Below are positions 37,495 to 56,156 of a stretch of DNA of 64,000 nucleotides, piece after piece. A model generated the notes under the pieces. The model ran no database searches. It had not been told where the DNA came from and saw only the letters and a program-made list of their open reading frames with translations. Where the stretch lies: NCBI RefSeq assembly GCF_011250635.1, contig NZ_JAANNP010000009.1:1-64000 (forward strand), in the 5' to 3' direction. The position numbers and the translations under genes were made by a program. The stretch's first letter is position 1; each line of letters opens with the position of its first letter. This stretch comes from Motilibacter deserti (GTDB lineage Bacteria > Actinomycetota > Actinomycetes > Motilibacterales > Motilibacteraceae).

Positions 37495-39612
37495 GTGACC
37501 TCGACACGCCCCGCGCGCTGCTGCGCCGCCCTCGTCACGGTCGCTGCGGTCGCGGCCCTGTCCCTCACCGCCACGCCGGCCGAGGCCGCCGCACTGCGCG
37601 CCGCCTCCGCAGCCGGCCTGGACGCGGTCGTCACCGCAGAGCTGACCCCCGCCGAGGCGCAGGCGTTCGTGGACGCCCTGCCGCAGCGCGGCGAGAGCGC
37701 GGCGTCGTTGGCCTACACGGTCGAGGCCGGCGGCACCCTCGCCGTCGACACCGTCGAGGTGGCCGCGGAGTCCGTCAGCACCGCGTCCCGGCTGCTCGAC
37801 GCCCAGCCCTCCGTCGTCGCCGCCGGGCCGGACACCCGCCGCTCGCTGCTCGCCGGAGACCTGCCCGACCCGTACGCGAGGTCGCAGTGGGCGCTCGCCC
37901 GGCTGGGCGCGCAGCAGGCGCGCGGGCTGCCGCACGGCACTCCCCCGGTCGTGGCGGTCATCGACACGGGTGTCGACGGGACGCACCCCGACCTCGCGGG
38001 CGTGCTCGTCGCGGGCACGGACGTCCTCACCGGCGGCGACGGGCTGACCGACAGCGAGGGGCACGGCACGCACGTCGCCGGCATCATCGGCGCGGTCGTC
38101 GGCAACGGCATCGGCGTGGCCGGGCTCGTCCCGGACGCCCGCATCATGCCGGTGAAGGTGTTCGGCCCGGACGGCACCGCATACTCCTCCGACGTGGCCA
38201 AGGGCATCATCTGGGCCACCGACCACGGCGCAAAGGTGCTCAACCTCTCCCTCGGCAGCGACACCCCGAGCGCCGCGGAGGCCTCGGCCGTCCGCTACGC
38301 CACCAGCCACGGTGTGGCCATCGTCGCGGCGATGGGCAACGACGGCGAGACCGGGAGCCCGACGTCCTACCCCGCCGCGTACGCCGGTGTCCTGGCCGTC
38401 GGCGCGACCACCGACACGGACACCCGAGCGCCCTTCTCCTCGACCGGCTCGCACATCGGCGTCGCCGCGCCGGGGGAGGACATCCTCTCGACCTACCCCG
38501 ACGATCGCTACGCCTGGCTCGACGGCACGTCGATGGCGACGCCGTACGCGGTGGCCGCCCTCGGCCTGGTCCTCGGGGCCTGGCCGTCGCTGACCGCTGC
38601 CCAGGCCGTCAGCCACATCGAGGCCACCACCACCGATCTCGGCGACCCGGGCTTCGACGACGAGTTCGGGTGGGGGCTCATCGACCCGGTCCGCGCCCTC
38701 AGCACGCAGCCGGACGGGGTGACGGCCGAGCCGCAGCCGACGGGGACGGTGGCCAGCGGCGGCGCGGGCGGGAACGGCGGCTCGGGCGGCAGCGGCACGC
38801 CCGACCCCGCTCCCCCGACCGATCCTGCTCCCACCGCCCCGGCACCCCAGCCCGACCCCGCACCCACGACCGACCCCGCACCCACGACCGACCCCGCACC
38901 CCCCACCGCCCCGGCACCCACGACTGCGCCGGCACCCACGGCTCAGCCCGCGCCGGCTCCGGTCGCCGGTTCGACGCAGCCCTTGCCAGTCGACCCCGCC
39001 CCCGCCCCCTCCACCGCGCCCGAGCCCGCGCCCTCCGGGGGCTCCACGGGCACCGCGCCCGCCGGGCTCACCGTCACGGCGGCCGCCCGGCCCGCCGCGG
39101 CGCGGGTGACGTACGGCAGCACCGTGACGGTCACCGGGACGGCGCTGCTCGGCGGCCTCGGGCTGACGGGGACGGCCCGCCTGCTGGAGGGCGCCCGGAC
39201 GCTCGCCACCGGCTCGGTGCGCGCCGGCACGTTCACCCTGCGGGCGCCGTTGCAACGCAGCGGGACGCTGCGGGTCAGCGTGACGTCGGGCAGCCGGACC
39301 GCGGTCGTCAGCGTCGGCTCGGCGCGCACGGTCGCGGCCGGGGTCAGCTGGGCCGCGACGAGCAGTGGGCGGGCCCGTGCGCGCACTGCGTTCCGCGCCG
39401 ACGTGGACGCGCCGGCCCGGCTCAGGGCGCGCCTCGAGCAGAAGGTCGGCAAGCGCTGGGTGGTCCGGGCGACGGCTCCCGTCTCCGCCAAGGGCACCGT
39501 GGCCTTCGTCTGGTCCCCGCCGCGCGGCACGTCGACGCTGCGCGTCGTGGTGCCGGCCGGCTACGGGGCCGCGGCCGGGACGAGCGCGCTGCGCCGGCAC
39601 ACGGCGCGGTAG
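37495..39612 (+). CDS. Secreted S8 (subtilisin-like) serine protease with Pro-rich linker
   Basis: 705 residues from GTG 37495 (GGGGGG upstream). A signal peptide at ~1-32 and an I9-type propeptide region to ~120 precede the catalytic domain with the full triad: Asp157 (VIDTGVDGTHPD), His190 (DSEGHGTHVAG) and Ser346 (LDGTSMATP). A linker of Gly then PAPTTDP repeats follows, then a C-terminal ~160-residue beta domain (VTYGSTVTVTGTALLGGLG) resembling surface Ig-like repeats. There is no C-terminal membrane helix, so this is an exoenzyme rather than a type VII mycosin. Confidence 0.93.
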   Translation: MTSTRPARCCAALVTVAAVAALSLTATPAEAAALRAASAAGLDAVVTAELTPAEAQAFVDALPQRGESAASLAYTVEAGGTLAVDTVEVAAESVSTASRLLDAQPSVVAAGPDTRRSLLAGDLPDPYARSQWALARLGAQQARGLPHGTPPVVAVIDTGVDGTHPDLAGVLVAGTDVLTGGDGLTDSEGHGTHVAGIIGAVVGNGIGVAGLVPDARIMPVKVFGPDGTAYSSDVAKGIIWATDHGAKVLNLSLGSDTPSAAEASAVRYATSHGVAIVAAMGNDGETGSPTSYPAAYAGVLAVGATTDTDTRAPFSSTGSHIGVAAPGEDILSTYPDDRYAWLDGTSMATPYAVAALGLVLGAWPSLTAAQAVSHIEATTTDLGDPGFDDEFGWGLIDPVRALSTQPDGVTAEPQPTGTVASGGAGGNGGSGGSGTPDPAPPTDPAPTAPAPQPDPAPTTDPAPTTDPAPPTAPAPTTAPAPTAQPAPAPVAGSTQPLPVDPAPAPSTAPEPAPSGGSTGTAPAGLTVTAAARPAAARVTYGSTVTVTGTALLGGLGLTGTARLLEGARTLATGSVRAGTFTLRAPLQRSGTLRVSVTSGSRTAVVSVGSARTVAAGVSWAATSSGRARARTAFRADVDAPARLRARLEQKVGKRWVVRATAPVSAKGTVAFVWSPPRGTSTLRVVVPAGYGAAAGTSALRRHTAR
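38853..38906 (+). repeat. In-frame 18-bp minisatellite in the protease linker
   Basis: CGACCCCGCACCCACGAC at 38853 and 38871, with a degenerate third copy at 38889. Each unit encodes six residues of the DPAPTT type, so linker length can change without breaking the frame. Confidence 0.75.
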
Positions 39613-50204: not shown

Positions 50205-52907
50205 TCAGGCCGGCGCCGCGGCCTCCGGCGAGCTCATCGCCCGCGCGCCCAGCCCGCAGGAGGCCTCGACGGCGGCCGCGGACATGGGCCGCGCGATCAG
50301 GAAGCCCTGCGCGGCGTCGCACTGCAGCGTCCGCAGGGCGGCCAGCTGCGCGTCCTCCTCGACCCCCTCCGCGACGACGGCGAGGTTGAAGGTGTGCGCC
50401 GCGCTCACGATGAGGCGGACCAGCTCCTGGTGCCCGGGCGCCTCGGACGCGACGAAGCTGCGGTCGATCTTGAGGGTGTCGACCGGCAGGTTCTGCAGCT
50501 GGCCGATCGAGGTGTAGCCGGTGCCGAAGTCGTCGATCGCGATGCGCACCCCGCTGCCGCGCAGCGCGCGGAGCCGGTCCGTGCAGGCCACGTCGTCGAC
50601 GATCATCGTCTCGGTCAGCTCGAGGACGAGGCACGACGGGTCGACCCCGGACCCGGCCAGCGCGTCGGCGACGTCGTCCAGGATCCGGGGGCTGCCGAGG
50701 TGCCGGCCGGAGACGTTGACGGCCATCGTGAGCCCGCGGCCGGCGTCGGCGGCGGACCAGGCGGCCAGCTGGCGCGTCGCCTCGCCCAGCGCCCACCGGC
50801 CGAGCTCGCAGATGAGGTTGGACTGCTCGGCCAGCGGGATGAAGGCGGCCGGCGGCACGAGGCCGTGCCCGGGCCGGTCCCAGCGCAGCAGCGCCTCGAA
50901 CCCGCGCAGCTCCTTCGTTGCGACCGACACCACCGGTTGGTAGTGCAGGAGGAACTCCCCCGCCACGAGGCCGTGCGCGATCGCGGCCTCGAGGTCGGCC
51001 CGCTCGGCCAGCTCGCGCCGCAGCTGCTCGTCGAACACCTCGGCCGTGCCCCGCCCAGAGGTCTTGGCCCGGTACGCCGCTGCGTCCGCCTCGCGCAGCA
51101 GGGCGTCGGCGTCGACCGAGCCGGTGCTGCTGATGGCGATGCCGACGCTGGCCCCGATGCGCACGGTGCTGTCGCCGATGGCGATGGGGTCGGACACCGC
51201 GGTGATGAGCCGCTGCGCCAGCGCCACGAGCGACACGTCGGACTCGACGGGCTCGAGCAGCACGAGGAACTCGTCGCCGCCGAGGCGGCAGACGACGTCG
51301 CCGGAGCGGACCAGAGCCTGCATGCGGCGCGCGACCGTGCGCAGCACCTCGTCCCCCGCGGCGTGGCCGAAGGTGTCGTTGACCTTCTTGAAGTAGTCCA
51401 GGTCGACGAAGAGCAGCGCGACGGTGGCGCTGGCGCGCTGCGCCCGGTGCAGCGCCCCCGCGATGAGCCGCAGCCCCTGGGCGCGGTTGGGCAGCTCGGT
51501 GAGCGCGTCGTGCGCGGCCTGGAAGGCGAGCTCGACCTGGAGCGTCTCGCGCTGCCGGATCGAGGTGACGATCTGCTCGATGGAGGCGTGCACCACCTGG
51601 CCGAGCGGCCCGGTGAGCGGCTCGCGGAGGCGCGCGTCGTCGAGCTCGCCGCGGGCGACGGCCTCGGCGTGCCCCTGCACCCGCCGCAGGCTCTCGACCG
51701 CTCCGGCGAGGGCACGCGCGACGGTGCGCACCTCCGTCGGCCCGGACTCGTGCACCTCGACCAGCTGCCCGTGGCTCACCGCGTCGGCATCGCGGGCCAG
51801 CCGGCGCAGCGGGCGGGAGACCGACTGCTCCACCGCGACGAGCAGGACGAGCGCGAGGACGAGCAGGAGCAGGGCGGAGCCCACGACGACGCGCAGGGTG
51901 CCGATCGCGGTCGAGCGCTGCTCCCCCGTCACCGCTATCGCGTGGTCGGCGGCCTGGTCCAGCAGCGAGACGAGCGCGGTGTCGCGGGCGATGCCGTCGC
52001 GATAGCTGTCGACGACCTTGCCCAAGGAAGGGGCGGCCGCGGAGCCCTTCGGGGCCAGCGTGGTGCTGCCGAGCGCGCGCTCGAACCGGCGCACCGGCGG
52101 GCTCGGCTGCAGGGCCTTCCAGGCCTGCCGCAGGCTCGGGGTGTGCAGCCCGTCCACCCGCTCGGCCGCGGCCTCGTAGGCGCCGCGGTCGGCGAGCAGC
52201 ATCGCGTGCTGCTCGGCCTCCCTGCCCTCTGCGGCGAAGTTGGCCGCGAGGAACTGCCCGAGCTCCTCTGCCGCAGCCTCGACGAGGTCGGAGATGCGGG
52301 CGATGTCCTCGAGGGCGACGACGCCGTCGGGGTCGAGGCCCTGCTCGATCGCGTCGTCGATGTGGGCGCGTTCGGCCTCGGTGAGCTGCGCGGAGACCCG
52401 GGCATAGCGGCGATAGACGTCGGCTGCGACGTCAAGGGCGCCTTCGGCGGTCTGAGTGTCCGGTCGTTCCTCGTCCAGCCCGGCTCGCAGCGCCGACAGC
52501 TGGGACGTCACCGAGTCGATGAGCGACGGGCTGACGCCCTGCGCGCGGGCCCGGGCCGTGGCGGCGTCGGTGGCCGTACGGGCGGCCTGCGCCTGCTTCA
52601 GCGTCAGAGCAAGCAGCGGCTCTCGCTGCACCTCCGGCAGCCCGACCATGCGGGAGAGCTCCACGTCTCCGGCGATCGCGACGCTGACCGAGGGCAGCGT
52701 CTCCTGGCCGATCATGCTGCGGACCGAGCTCAGGGCGGCGGCGTGCGTGACCGAGCGCTCGGCGTCCTGGGCGTCGCGCGCGCTCGTGAGCGTCACGCTC
52801 ACGCCGCTGCCCGCCAGCACGACGACACCGAGCATGGGCACCGCCACGAGGGCGAGCAGCCGTGGGCGCAGCGACCCCCGCGTACGGCGCTCCCCCGGCT
52901 GCTTCAC
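50205..52907 (-). CDS. Membrane-bound GGDEF-EAL c-di-GMP enzyme
   Basis: 900 residues. TM1 ~14-36, a ~300-residue helical extracytoplasmic sensor with a nitrate/MCP-like four-helix look, TM2 ~335-360 (LRVVVGSALLLLVLALVLLVAV), HAMP, then GGDEF (FVDLDYFKKVNDTFGHAAGDE, RLGGDEFLVLL) and EAL (GFEALLRWDRPGHG, ELTETMIV, DDFGTGYTSIGQLQNLPVD, KIDRSF). Both active-site motifs are intact, so it could make or break c-di-GMP depending on the signal. GTG 52907 follows a WhiG/FliA-like -10 by seven bases. Confidence 0.93.
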   Translation of the reverse strand: MKQPGERRTRGSLRPRLLALVAVPMLGVVVLAGSGVSVTLTSARDAQDAERSVTHAAALSSVRSMIGQETLPSVSVAIAGDVELSRMVGLPEVQREPLLALTLKQAQAARTATDAATARARAQGVSPSLIDSVTSQLSALRAGLDEERPDTQTAEGALDVAADVYRRYARVSAQLTEAERAHIDDAIEQGLDPDGVVALEDIARISDLVEAAAEELGQFLAANFAAEGREAEQHAMLLADRGAYEAAAERVDGLHTPSLRQAWKALQPSPPVRRFERALGSTTLAPKGSAAAPSLGKVVDSYRDGIARDTALVSLLDQAADHAIAVTGEQRSTAIGTLRVVVGSALLLLVLALVLLVAVEQSVSRPLRRLARDADAVSHGQLVEVHESGPTEVRTVARALAGAVESLRRVQGHAEAVARGELDDARLREPLTGPLGQVVHASIEQIVTSIRQRETLQVELAFQAAHDALTELPNRAQGLRLIAGALHRAQRASATVALLFVDLDYFKKVNDTFGHAAGDEVLRTVARRMQALVRSGDVVCRLGGDEFLVLLEPVESDVSLVALAQRLITAVSDPIAIGDSTVRIGASVGIAISSTGSVDADALLREADAAAYRAKTSGRGTAEVFDEQLRRELAERADLEAAIAHGLVAGEFLLHYQPVVSVATKELRGFEALLRWDRPGHGLVPPAAFIPLAEQSNLICELGRWALGEATRQLAAWSAADAGRGLTMAVNVSGRHLGSPRILDDVADALAGSGVDPSCLVLELTETMIVDDVACTDRLRALRGSGVRIAIDDFGTGYTSIGQLQNLPVDTLKIDRSFVASEAPGHQELVRLIVSAAHTFNLAVVAEGVEEDAQLAALRTLQCDAAQGFLIARPMSAAAVEASCGLGARAMSSPEAAAPA

Positions 52908-52914
52908 CCACGCT

Positions 52915-52942
52915 TTGTCGGCTGGTCGAGCGCGGACCTTTG
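52915..52942 (-). promoter_or_regulatory. WhiG/FliA-like promoter of the GGDEF-EAL gene
   Basis: Minus-strand CAAA (52942-52939), 16 bases, GCCGACAA (52922-52915), then seven bases to GTG 52907. One mismatch to the WhiG -10 GCCGATAA and one to the -35 TAAA; spacing to the start suggests a leaderless message. Confidence 0.45.
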
Positions 52943-52978
52943 GGTTCTCGGGTGCCGAGCGGGCCGATCGAGTGACGC

Positions 52979-53009
52979 GCGGCGGGGCCCGGAGGCCGGG
53001 CCCCGCCGC
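52979..53009 (-). terminator. Strong hairpin after the glycerophosphodiesterase gene
   Basis: 14-bp perfect stem GCGGCGGGGCCCGG / CCGGGCCCCGCCGC with an AGG loop, ending seven bases before the gene's stop codon on the minus strand side; it separates this gene from the GGDEF-EAL gene downstream. Confidence 0.65.
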
Positions 53010-53015
53010 AGCGGG

Positions 53016-54890
53016 CTACCTCCCGGTGGCCAGCAGCGCCCGGGCGTCGGCGGCGAGCAGCGCCGCCAGCGGCTCGGGGACGCCCCGCCCGGCGTGCGAC
53101 TCGGCGTCGTCGACCAGCTGCGCCCAGTCCTGCTTGTCGATGTCGTCGAGCATCCGGCGCCGCAGCGACGGCTTGACCTCCTGCGGCCCGGCCAGCAGGG
53201 AGGCAAGGCCGCGGGCGGTCGGAACCACCGTGAACGTGGACGTGGTCGTCGTCGTGCCGCCCTCGCCCGTCGCCGTCACGACGACGGTGTGCGTGCCGAG
53301 CGCGAGCGTGTCGACGTCGGTGACCTGCCCCTCGGCCGCCGGCTTCCCGTCCAGGGTCACGCTGACCGAGTCGGCGTCCTGCTCGGCGACGGCGAGCGTG
53401 AGGCTCTCGCCGCGGGTCAGCTGGGCGCCGGCCGCGGGAGCGAGCACCGAGGCCGTCGGCTTGCCGGCCAGCGCCTGGGTGTAGCGGTCCTGCCAGCCGG
53501 CGAGCTGCCCGGCCTTGTTGGTGATGATCCCGTCGACGCCCAGCTCGCGCAGCCGCTCCCACGAGGCGGTGTCGTCGACCGTCCACACCATGACGGCCAC
53601 GCCGGCCTCGTGCAGCTCCTCGACGACCCCCGGGTCGGCCTTCAGCCCGTCCCAGCTGGGGTTGTACGCCGCGAGCCCCAGCTCCTTCGAGACCGCGACC
53701 GGGTCGGCGTCCAGCGCGGACCGGAGCAGGCCGAGGCGGAGCTCGGGGTCGGCCGCGCGGGCGTGGCGCAGGACGTTGACGTCGAAGCTCTGCAGCAGCA
53801 CCTCACTGGTCTGCCCGCGGCTCTTGATGGCGGCGACGACCCGGTCCACCTCGGCCTGCGTCTCCGGCCCCTTCACCTCGAGCAGGAGCTTGCTCGCGCG
53901 GCCGCGGACCTGGTCGAGCACGTCGGTCAGGGCGGGGACCTTCTGGCCCGGGTACGCGGCCGCGGAGAACCATGAGCCGGCCTCGAGCTGGGCGATCTGC
54001 GCCGCGGTCAGCGTGCTGATGTCGCCGGTCCCCGCGGTCGTCCGGTCGACCGTGTTGTCGTGCATCAGCACAGGCGCGCCGTCCCGGGTGGTCTGCACGT
54101 CGGTCTCCACCCAGTCGGCGCCGTTGCGGATGGCCGACTCGAAGGCGGCGAGGGTGTTCTCCGGCGCCGTGGCCGAGTCGCCGCGGTGCGCGATGACGGC
54201 CGGCAGGGCCCCGGGGGCGTCGGGGACGATGACCGGCTCGGGGTCGAGCCTGGTGACGACGATGTCGTCGTAGCTCGCCTGCGCGCCGTTCACGACCAGT
54301 CCGAGCACGCCCGCGGCCGACCGCTGCAGCGCGCTGGTCGTCATGACCTTCGTGCCGTTGAAGACCCAGGTCGCGCGGCTGCCGTGCACCTCGACGGCGA
54401 CGCGCACGTCCTTGCCGGTGCCGGCCGTCGTCGGCGCGCTGGCGGTGTTGGTGACGTTCCACGCGCCGCCGGCCGTCATCTGCGCGAACTCGAGCCCGTT
54501 CGCCGCGGTGGAGCCCGTGCGCATGGTGGCGATCCACCACGGCCGGCTGCCGTCGGCGGGCATGTCGAGGGCGACGGCGCTCCAGCGCGCGGTGTTCTGC
54601 ACCGTCTCGAAGCGCACGGTCGCCTCGACCCGGTAGTCGCTGAGGTGCTCGCCGAACGTGATGCGAGCCTGCTGGCTCGAGCTGGCGCTCGTCCCGACCA
54701 GGCGGCCGTCCCGGACGGCCCACGTGCCCTCGATCGGGCGCCAGCCCGCCGGCAGGACGTTGTCGTCGAAGTCGGCACGCAGCACGACGGCGCTGTCGGC
54801 GGTCGCGGGCGCGGAGCTGGTGAGCGGGGCGACGGCGAGCAGCGGGACAGCCGCCAGCACGCCGAGCCCACGGGCAGAACGGAGTCGCAC
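53016..54890 (-). CDS. Secreted multidomain glycerophosphodiester phosphodiesterase
   Basis: 624 residues, GTG 54890 after GGAAGGAC. Signal peptide 1-~32; a LamG/DUF1080-like jelly-roll at ~35-215 (FDDNVLPAGWRPIEGTWAVRDG) that may bind glycans; a GDPD TIM barrel at ~231-470 with His235-Arg236 (AHRGDSATAPENT), Glu262/Asp264 and His277 (ETDVQTTRDG, LMHDNTVDR); an Ig-like domain ~475-560; and a helical C-terminus. It should cleave glycerophosphodiesters (lipid head groups or glycerol teichoic acid) outside the cell to give glycerol 3-phosphate, a phosphate or carbon source. Confidence 0.92.
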   Translation of the reverse strand: MRLRSARGLGVLAAVPLLAVAPLTSSAPATADSAVVLRADFDDNVLPAGWRPIEGTWAVRDGRLVGTSASSSQQARITFGEHLSDYRVEATVRFETVQNTARWSAVALDMPADGSRPWWIATMRTGSTAANGLEFAQMTAGGAWNVTNTASAPTTAGTGKDVRVAVEVHGSRATWVFNGTKVMTTSALQRSAAGVLGLVVNGAQASYDDIVVTRLDPEPVIVPDAPGALPAVIAHRGDSATAPENTLAAFESAIRNGADWVETDVQTTRDGAPVLMHDNTVDRTTAGTGDISTLTAAQIAQLEAGSWFSAAAYPGQKVPALTDVLDQVRGRASKLLLEVKGPETQAEVDRVVAAIKSRGQTSEVLLQSFDVNVLRHARAADPELRLGLLRSALDADPVAVSKELGLAAYNPSWDGLKADPGVVEELHEAGVAVMVWTVDDTASWERLRELGVDGIITNKAGQLAGWQDRYTQALAGKPTASVLAPAAGAQLTRGESLTLAVAEQDADSVSVTLDGKPAAEGQVTDVDTLALGTHTVVVTATGEGGTTTTTSTFTVVPTARGLASLLAGPQEVKPSLRRRMLDDIDKQDWAQLVDDAESHAGRGVPEPLAALLAADARALLATGR

Positions 54891-55801: not shown

Positions 55802-56089
55802 TCAGCTGGCCAGCCGCTCCCCGGCGTCTGCGGGCTCGATCTCGACGGGCCTGCTGATCTCGGCCCACACGTCGTCGAGGGAGAGGCCGAGGACGGCGGT
55901 GATCGCGGCGATGGTCGGGAAGGCGGGGGTCGCGACGCGGCCGGACTCGATCTTGCGCAGCGTCTCCGGCGACACCCCGGCATCGAGGGCGGTGGCGAGC
56001 ATCGGGCGCTCTCCCCGGGCGCGACGCAGGAGGGCGCCGAGGCGCTGCCCCCGCTCGACCTCGGCGGGGGTGAGGGGCAACCGGACCAT
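55802..56089 (-). CDS. XRE-family transcriptional regulator
   Basis: 95 residues, one helix-turn-helix domain: GQRLGALLRRARGERPMLATALDAGVSPETLRKIESGR (recognition helix SPETLRKIE), then FPTIAAITAVLGLSLDDVW, the usual fourth and fifth helices of Cro/C1 domains. It starts at ATG 56089, six bases after a TAGTAT box. It diverges from a methionine aminopeptidase, and repeats between them look like its operator, so it probably controls both. Confidence 0.88.
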   Translation of the reverse strand: MVRLPLTPAEVERGQRLGALLRRARGERPMLATALDAGVSPETLRKIESGRVATPAFPTIAAITAVLGLSLDDVWAEISRPVEIEPADAGERLAS

Positions 56090-56095
56090 GGCCCG

Positions 56096-56128
56096 ATACT
56101 AATACCGGGATAGTATGGCCGGGATAGT
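56096..56128. promoter_or_regulatory. Divergent -10 boxes forming an operator, plus direct repeat
   Basis: ATACTA-N9-TAGTAT (56096-56116) is an inverted repeat made of the two facing -10 boxes, TAGTAT minus for xre and TAGTAT plus for map. CCGGGATAGT occurs twice, at 56105 and 56119, 14 bp apart. A dimeric XRE protein bound here would block both promoters. Confidence 0.6.
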
Positions 56129-56156
56129 TATCGGCCGCTCGAGGGAAGGCACGGCC

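Follow-up and report, generated by a model that had tools for sequence, protein, structure and literature searches.

A likely leaderless WhiG/FliA-type promoter on a GGDEF-EAL gene of an actinobacterial genome

Analysis of a 64,000-nucleotide stretch of DNA (the window; G+C content, 74.7%) located a promoter-like element, CAAAGGTCCGCGCTCGACCAGCCGACAA, at 52942..52915 on the (-) strand, which reads directly as CAAA-N16-GCCGACAA and whose last base is separated by 7 bases from the GTG at 52907 that opens a GGDEF-EAL gene. We consider it likely that this site is a leaderless WhiG/FliA-type promoter acting within a c-di-GMP feedback circuit. The initial annotation had described the motif seven bases before the GTG, which is confirmed at 52942-52915 (-), and had read it as a flagellar-type promoter on the GGDEF-EAL gene; this reading is supported by the position at the start codon, by conservation within the genus, and by the concentration of the same layout on GGDEF genes, which are also the reasons for placing the site above chance. 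The genome comprises 4.99 Mb in 269 contigs, and its gene content (WhiG, RsiG) points to an actinobacterium.

Measured against TAAA(G) at a spacing of 14-16 bases, the -35 element CAAAG (52938..52942, (-) strand) has one mismatch, with N16 after CAAA or N15 after CAAAG; the corresponding element is YHAAG on other genes here and TAAAG for sigma-28. The -10 octamer GCCGACAA (52922-52915, (-) strand) fits the GCCGA(T/C)AA pattern of sigma-28/WhiG/FliA-type promoters, and its GCCGA core is invariant in three genomes. The GTG (52907-52905) is the first in-frame ATG, GTG or TTG of the 900-codon open reading frame (50205-52907, (-) strand), and GCCGA ends 10 bases before it. The whiH gene of S. coelicolor encodes a sporulation transcription regulator and not a c-di-GMP enzyme. 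It is leaderless, is recognized by sigma-WhiG, and has as its -10 the same GCCGACAA as the window site (PMC3160421). The -10 element of leaderless genes is given as TANNNT, about 10-12 bp before the start codon (PMC3160421); in the window gene, as in whiH, the element at this position is GCCGACAA instead.

In the E. coli sigma-28 promoter of aer, the -35 is TAAAG, the -10 is GCCGACAT, and transcription starts about 6 bp past the octamer (PMC2859248). By this geometry, transcription of the window gene would be expected to start at 52909, two bases before the GTG; the predicted start is set at 52909-52907 (52905..52909 with the start codon, (-) strand). The mRNA would then most likely be leaderless or carry a leader of 1-2 nt. 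E. coli sigma-28 promoters have a spacer one base shorter (TAAA-N15, against CAAA-N16 here), and CAAA is a weak variant there, its substitution for TAAA having cut sigma-28 activity at aer from 223 to 23 units (PMC2859248). The window promoter may therefore be weak, or the actinobacterial sigma factor may accept YHAAG.

The gene encodes a membrane sensor protein of 900 aa (50205..52907, (-) strand) with HAMP, GGDEF (RSGD-N5-GGDEF) and EAL (EALLR) domains, assigned by Pfam (PF00990 and PF00563 were both found) and from the sequence; by eye, its N-terminal region is of a hydrophobic/sensor type. The GGDEF, RxxD inhibitory-site, EALLR, DDFGTGYTS and KIDRSF motifs all read as intact, and the product is predicted to be an enzyme that makes and breaks c-di-GMP. 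The upstream neighbor, on the same strand, encodes a glycerophosphodiester phosphodiesterase (GDPD) with a 3-keto-disaccharide hydrolase-like domain (53016..54890, (-) strand; Pfam scan) and ends at 53016, outside the promoter. Between the two genes lies a G+C-rich hairpin with no T tract (52976..53013, (-) strand; MFE -42.5 kcal/mol for the folded 55-nt stretch, z -4.4), which probably marks where the upstream transcription unit ends; a scan for T-tract terminators found none at 52976..53013, and similar G+C-rich inverted repeats were seen by eye upstream of the start in the two family orthologues described below. No sigma-70-like site was found in 52800-53120, a weak negative given that the scan is strict and expects 0.0 sites by chance. 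Because of the hairpin after the GDPD gene and this absence of a sigma-70-like site, the GGDEF-EAL gene probably has its own promoter within the ~70 bases before the GTG. An Rfam scan of 52700-53200 gave no match, and the sole tRNA of the window is distant (38224-38303).

Judged by the canonical consensus alone, the site is unimpressive and the case modest. Among the matches to TAAA-N16-GCCGATAA in the window it ranks first, with 2 mismatches where the other 7 listed have 3. Matches at N16 number 8 against 2.35 expected, compared with 2 against 2.27 at N15, 1 against 2.39 at N14, and 1 against 2.64 at N17. Across the genome, TAAA-N16-GCCGATAA with up to 2 mismatches has 16 sites against 11 for the reversed pattern, and no clear regulon emerged from this consensus. 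The 4.99 Mb contain a single CAAA-N14..17-GCCGACAA, with 0 control matches. The probability of YHAAG-N14..16-GCCGA-N9/10 at one given start codon is ~2.8e-5 at this base composition, or ~0.0017 over an assumed 60 genes. The initial annotation had called the site the second of its kind; no other YHAAG-N14..16-GCCGA with an RTG 9-11 bases on was found in the window.

For wider scans, the genome itself (G000) was set beside one of the same genus (G001), one of another genus of the family (G002), and two other family genomes (G003 and G004). AAGG-N13..15-GCCGA-N9..11-RTG gave 21 matches against 16 for the reversed pattern in G000, 28 against 6 in G001, and 19 against 10 in G002. The N15/N10 form gave 6 against 5, 5 against 2, and 14 against 0 in the same three genomes, and was scarce in G003 (4 against 1) and G004 (1 against 0). 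TCAA-N15-GCCGAW, scanned with no start-codon condition and with its matches left unannotated, gave 31 matches against 8 for the control in G000, 23 against 16 in G001, 15 against 3 in G002, 23 against 15 in G003, and 20 against 10 in G004, counts from which we conclude nothing. Neither the genome-wide motif scan proposed with the original claim nor the comparison of orthologues described below refuted the reading. In the scan, the canonical consensus is barely enriched, but the refined leaderless motif fronts a FliA-like sigma gene as well as several GGDEF genes.

The concentration on GGDEF genes was measured in the two same-genus genomes, where YHAAG-N14..16-GCCGA-N9/10 followed by an in-frame start (any ATG, GTG or TTG before the GGDEF domain) occurs on 10 of 91 GGDEF genes, 5 per genome. 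The set holds 91 of the 92 genes listed, one G001 gene being left out, and includes three open reading frames truncated by the end of a contig; the window gene's orthologue in G001, with its CGAAG, falls outside the 10. Among 1799 motifs with permuted letters, 1732 gave 0 genes, 60 gave 1, six gave 2-4, and one gave 8, this last being HYAAG, which is nearly the same as YHAAG. When spacers of 10-21 were tried, matches appeared at 14-16 only, and the distance from GCCGA to the start peaked at 9-10 bases; a few other distances had one to three genes. Counted to an RTG, the peak lies at 10 in 5 of 17 motif sites of the G000 stretches (328 kb with the window) and 6 of 15 of the G001 stretches (242 kb with L111), both GGDEF-rich by design. 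Judged by motif, DGC/PDE genes thus stand behind WhiG-type promoters, in these 10 of 91 cases and at 5 of the 14 N15/N10 sites of G002. Pairs of apparent orthologues in G000 and G001 (orthology by eye) keep the YHAAG -35, GCCGA and the start while the remainder varies; they include three further GGDEF genes, the FliA-like sigma gene, a glycerophosphotransferase-like gene and a GH43 gene.

Conservation of the window site itself was strongest in the same genus. Within diverged flanking DNA, the G001 orthologue (74% protein identity) carries CGAAG-N15-GCCGA-N10-GTG in register: in the ungapped comparison, agreement is 4/5 in the -35, 5/5 in GCCGA and 3/3 in the start codon, against 9/15 in the spacer, 2/10 in the bases between GCCGA and GTG, and 16/40 upstream. 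The G002 orthologue (52% identity) keeps GCCGA-N9-GTG with a degenerate -35, CGCAG, which overlaps the arm of a hairpin that also contains an AGGTCC stretch, and this CGCAG may be no promoter element. Upstream conservation, on which the initial annotation had staked its reading, was thus found for GCCGA and the GTG in the orthologues of both genera, but for the -35 in the same genus only. No close orthologue was present among the matches listed for G003 and G004, and the arrangement is absent from a distant class-level homologue (G025, 37% identity). Relatives sought in a named genome collection yielded 80 loci, by title all from other phyla and matched through their GGDEF/EAL parts, which were not used.

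The N15/N10 form has 25 matches in G000-G002, of which 23 were scanned with Pfam, the other two being the window gene and a 26-codon open reading frame. GGDEF genes account for 8 of the 25 (L330 only after extension), and the G002 matches also include genes for FliM, a T2SSE/PilT-like ATPase, an N-methylated prepilin-like protein, an MCP, an SLT protein and a PAS-histidine kinase. By our judgement of reading-frame context, six of the 25 sites look coding-internal (L326, L328, L329, L332, L337 and L343), three of them among the six of G000 (L326, L329 and L332); at others, including L327, L336 and L339, an open frame extends a long way upstream and the starts are uncertain. The gene for the FliA-like sigma factor carries the leaderless motif in both G000 (L092 3589-3630) and G001 (L148, G001:C7:7111-7147), which suggests autoregulation or a WhiG-to-FliA cascade. 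A flagellin gene of G004 has TCAA-N15-GCCGAT about 70 bases before an ATG provided with a ribosome-binding site, tying the motif to the flagellar class of sigma factors; a site similar to this one in G002 (C15:16317) stands before a gene truncated by the end of its contig. Over 79 genomes (the genome itself, 4 of the family and 74 of the class), there are 417 matches to the N15/N10 form against 167 to the reversed pattern, the form being higher in 63 genomes and lower in 10. Outside the family, 30 loci were taken and 16 scanned with Pfam; as only one of the 16 is a GGDEF gene, the bias towards c-di-GMP genes is shown for the family only.

A cognate sigma factor for promoters of the sigma-28/WhiG/FliA type is encoded in the genome. 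WhiG, sought in G000, has an orthologue that scores 288.6 bits against TIGR02479 (cut-off, 189.6) and matches PDB 6pfj, which we take to be Streptomyces WhiG, with an E value of 9e-107. A second FliA-like sigma factor scores 183.3 bits, below the same cut-off, with PDB 6pfv as its best match (8e-37). RsiG (PF22802), the c-di-GMP-dependent anti-sigma factor of WhiG, was found in all five family genomes, in G000 alongside WhiG, and one RsiG in each has both E-X3-S-X2-R-X3-Q-X3-D motifs. Each of the five also has a second RsiG-like match (in G000, L359 1162-1965, C171); in the second proteins read by eye, from G000, G002 and G003, one c-di-GMP motif is exact and the other has H for Q. The presence in G000 of two FliA-family sigma factors and two RsiG-like proteins suggests two sigma/anti-sigma pairs.

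The mechanism that we favor starts from the observed motif, geometry, conservation, concentration on GGDEF genes, and sigma and RsiG genes. RNA polymerase with WhiG or the second FliA-like sigma factor would recognize CAAAG and GCCGA(CAA), and transcription would start at the GTG or within 2 bases of it, producing a leaderless mRNA for the membrane GGDEF-EAL protein. The window gene would belong to a group of c-di-GMP enzyme genes of the family that share this layout. At high c-di-GMP, the WhiG-type sigma factor would be held by RsiG, as is known in Streptomyces and Rubrobacter. Since this genome encodes an RsiG bearing both motifs, lower c-di-GMP would free the sigma factor, allow expression of these enzymes, and close a feedback loop. 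In this scheme we infer the transcription start, the sigma factor responsible, control by RsiG in this organism, and the sign of the feedback.

Parts of such a circuit have published precedents, in the WhiG-type control of c-di-GMP enzymes in Rubrobacter and the leaderless sigma-WhiG transcript of whiH. In Rubrobacter radiotolerans, 12 WhiG-type promoters were mapped, 5 of them on DGC/PDE genes and 3 in a type IV pilus cluster, with the motif sought within 200 bp of the start codon, and the authors propose feedback loops (PMC8325347); the main text of that paper makes no mention of a leaderless layout. With only one motif, the RsiG of Rubrobacter works as a dimer, (RsiG)2-(c-di-GMP)2-WhiG, whereas the RsiG encoded here has both motifs. 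Streptomyces RmdB, by its description likewise a membrane GGDEF-EAL enzyme tied to the WhiG/RsiG switch, binds sigma-WhiG (PMC13232838), so that its link consists of protein contact and c-di-GMP removal, unlike the promoter link proposed here; control of rmdB by WhiG was not found in the available part of that paper. Among the papers listed in searches of open-access literature, the combination of a leaderless layout, WhiG/FliA and a c-di-GMP enzyme was approached only by the whiH statement and the Rubrobacter paper.

The closest competitor to this mechanism accepts the promoter as real but has it read by the FliA-like sigma factor outside the reach of RsiG, so that the gene would merely be co-expressed with motility or pili, with no RsiG/c-di-GMP feedback. 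We think this quite possible while inclining against it. The FliA-like sigma gene itself carries the motif and lies together with a flagellin-family gene (in our judgement FlgL-like) on a contig of 4.9 kb, and flagella and pilus genes of Actinoplanes are under WhiG-like sigma factors even though RsiG is lacking there (PMC8325347); a FliA consensus for Actinoplanes was looked for in passages of two papers and not found. Against this, the RsiG with both motifs and the second RsiG-like protein occur in all five family genomes, and both sigma factors could be under RsiG-type control.

That the sigma-28-like match is a chance one, the gene being driven by another upstream promoter or by read-through from the GDPD gene, appears improbable. 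The canonical sites are barely enriched in the genome and the -35 is imperfect: CAAA is not the best -35, the element decays in the orthologues (CGAAG, CGCAG), and the broad scans of the genome are weak. However, chance leaves unexplained why GCCGA and the start are conserved in three genomes and why the layout is concentrated on GGDEF genes, and the strong hairpin between the genes, together with the failure of the strict scan to find a sigma-70-like site there, argues against the other sources of transcription. Slightly less probable still is a promoter that is correctly placed on an mRNA that is not leaderless, translation beginning downstream. The GTG has no ribosome-binding site and other in-frame GTG/ATG codons follow within 25 codons, but initiation at these codons would remove part of the first hydrophobic segment (by eye), both orthologues have a GTG at the equivalent position, other genes show the 9-10 base distance again, and whiH, which has the same -10, is documented as leaderless.

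If the leaderless promoter and its feedback circuit are as we propose, what is new is the repeated combination of WhiG-type control of c-di-GMP enzymes with a leaderless layout. It names specific c-di-GMP enzyme genes, open to test, that may answer to a c-di-GMP-gated sigma factor and at the same time determine the state of that factor. The wiring described in Rubrobacter is also carried over to a genome in which RsiG has both motifs. The scans also suggest that leaderless promoters of the sigma-28 class recur on many genes, a class that a leaderless search based on TANNNT does not model. Speculatively, and with more doubt than confidence, the family, and perhaps much of the class, may have WhiG/FliA-type promoters fused to their starts (GCCGA-N10-RTG) in a leaderless motility/pilus/c-di-GMP regulon, with two sigma factors and two RsiG paralogues as paired c-di-GMP-gated switches over their own enzymes.

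Other observations were made along the way. TCAAG-N15-GCCGA-N10-GTG precedes GH43 glycoside hydrolase genes that appear to be orthologues, L338 (G000:C262:39519) and L325 (G001:C1:420533). In three genomes of the class, the leaderless motif is also found on small proteins that resemble each other by eye and match no Pfam family (L295, L303 and L319). A full-length flagellin gene with N and C domains (L090 10002-11480; G000:C236:50002-51480) lies within a phosphate-acquisition cluster of PhoD, phytase-like, histidine phosphatase, PHO4 transporter, flagellin, GDPD and PhoX genes, with polyphosphate kinase nearby; no other flagellar gene was present among the ten proteins scanned, and flagellar-promoter scans of this C236 stretch gave nothing useful. 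In the window, an GCCGATAA at 56128-56135 (-) falls outside the matches with up to 3 mismatches at spacers of 14-17 and so lacks a TAAA-like -35. It is followed by repeated ACTATCCCGG / TAGTATCGGG stretches before a small regulator that is Cro/C1-like by eye, and the whole (56072-56135, (-) strand) has the look of an operator and not of a sigma-28 promoter.
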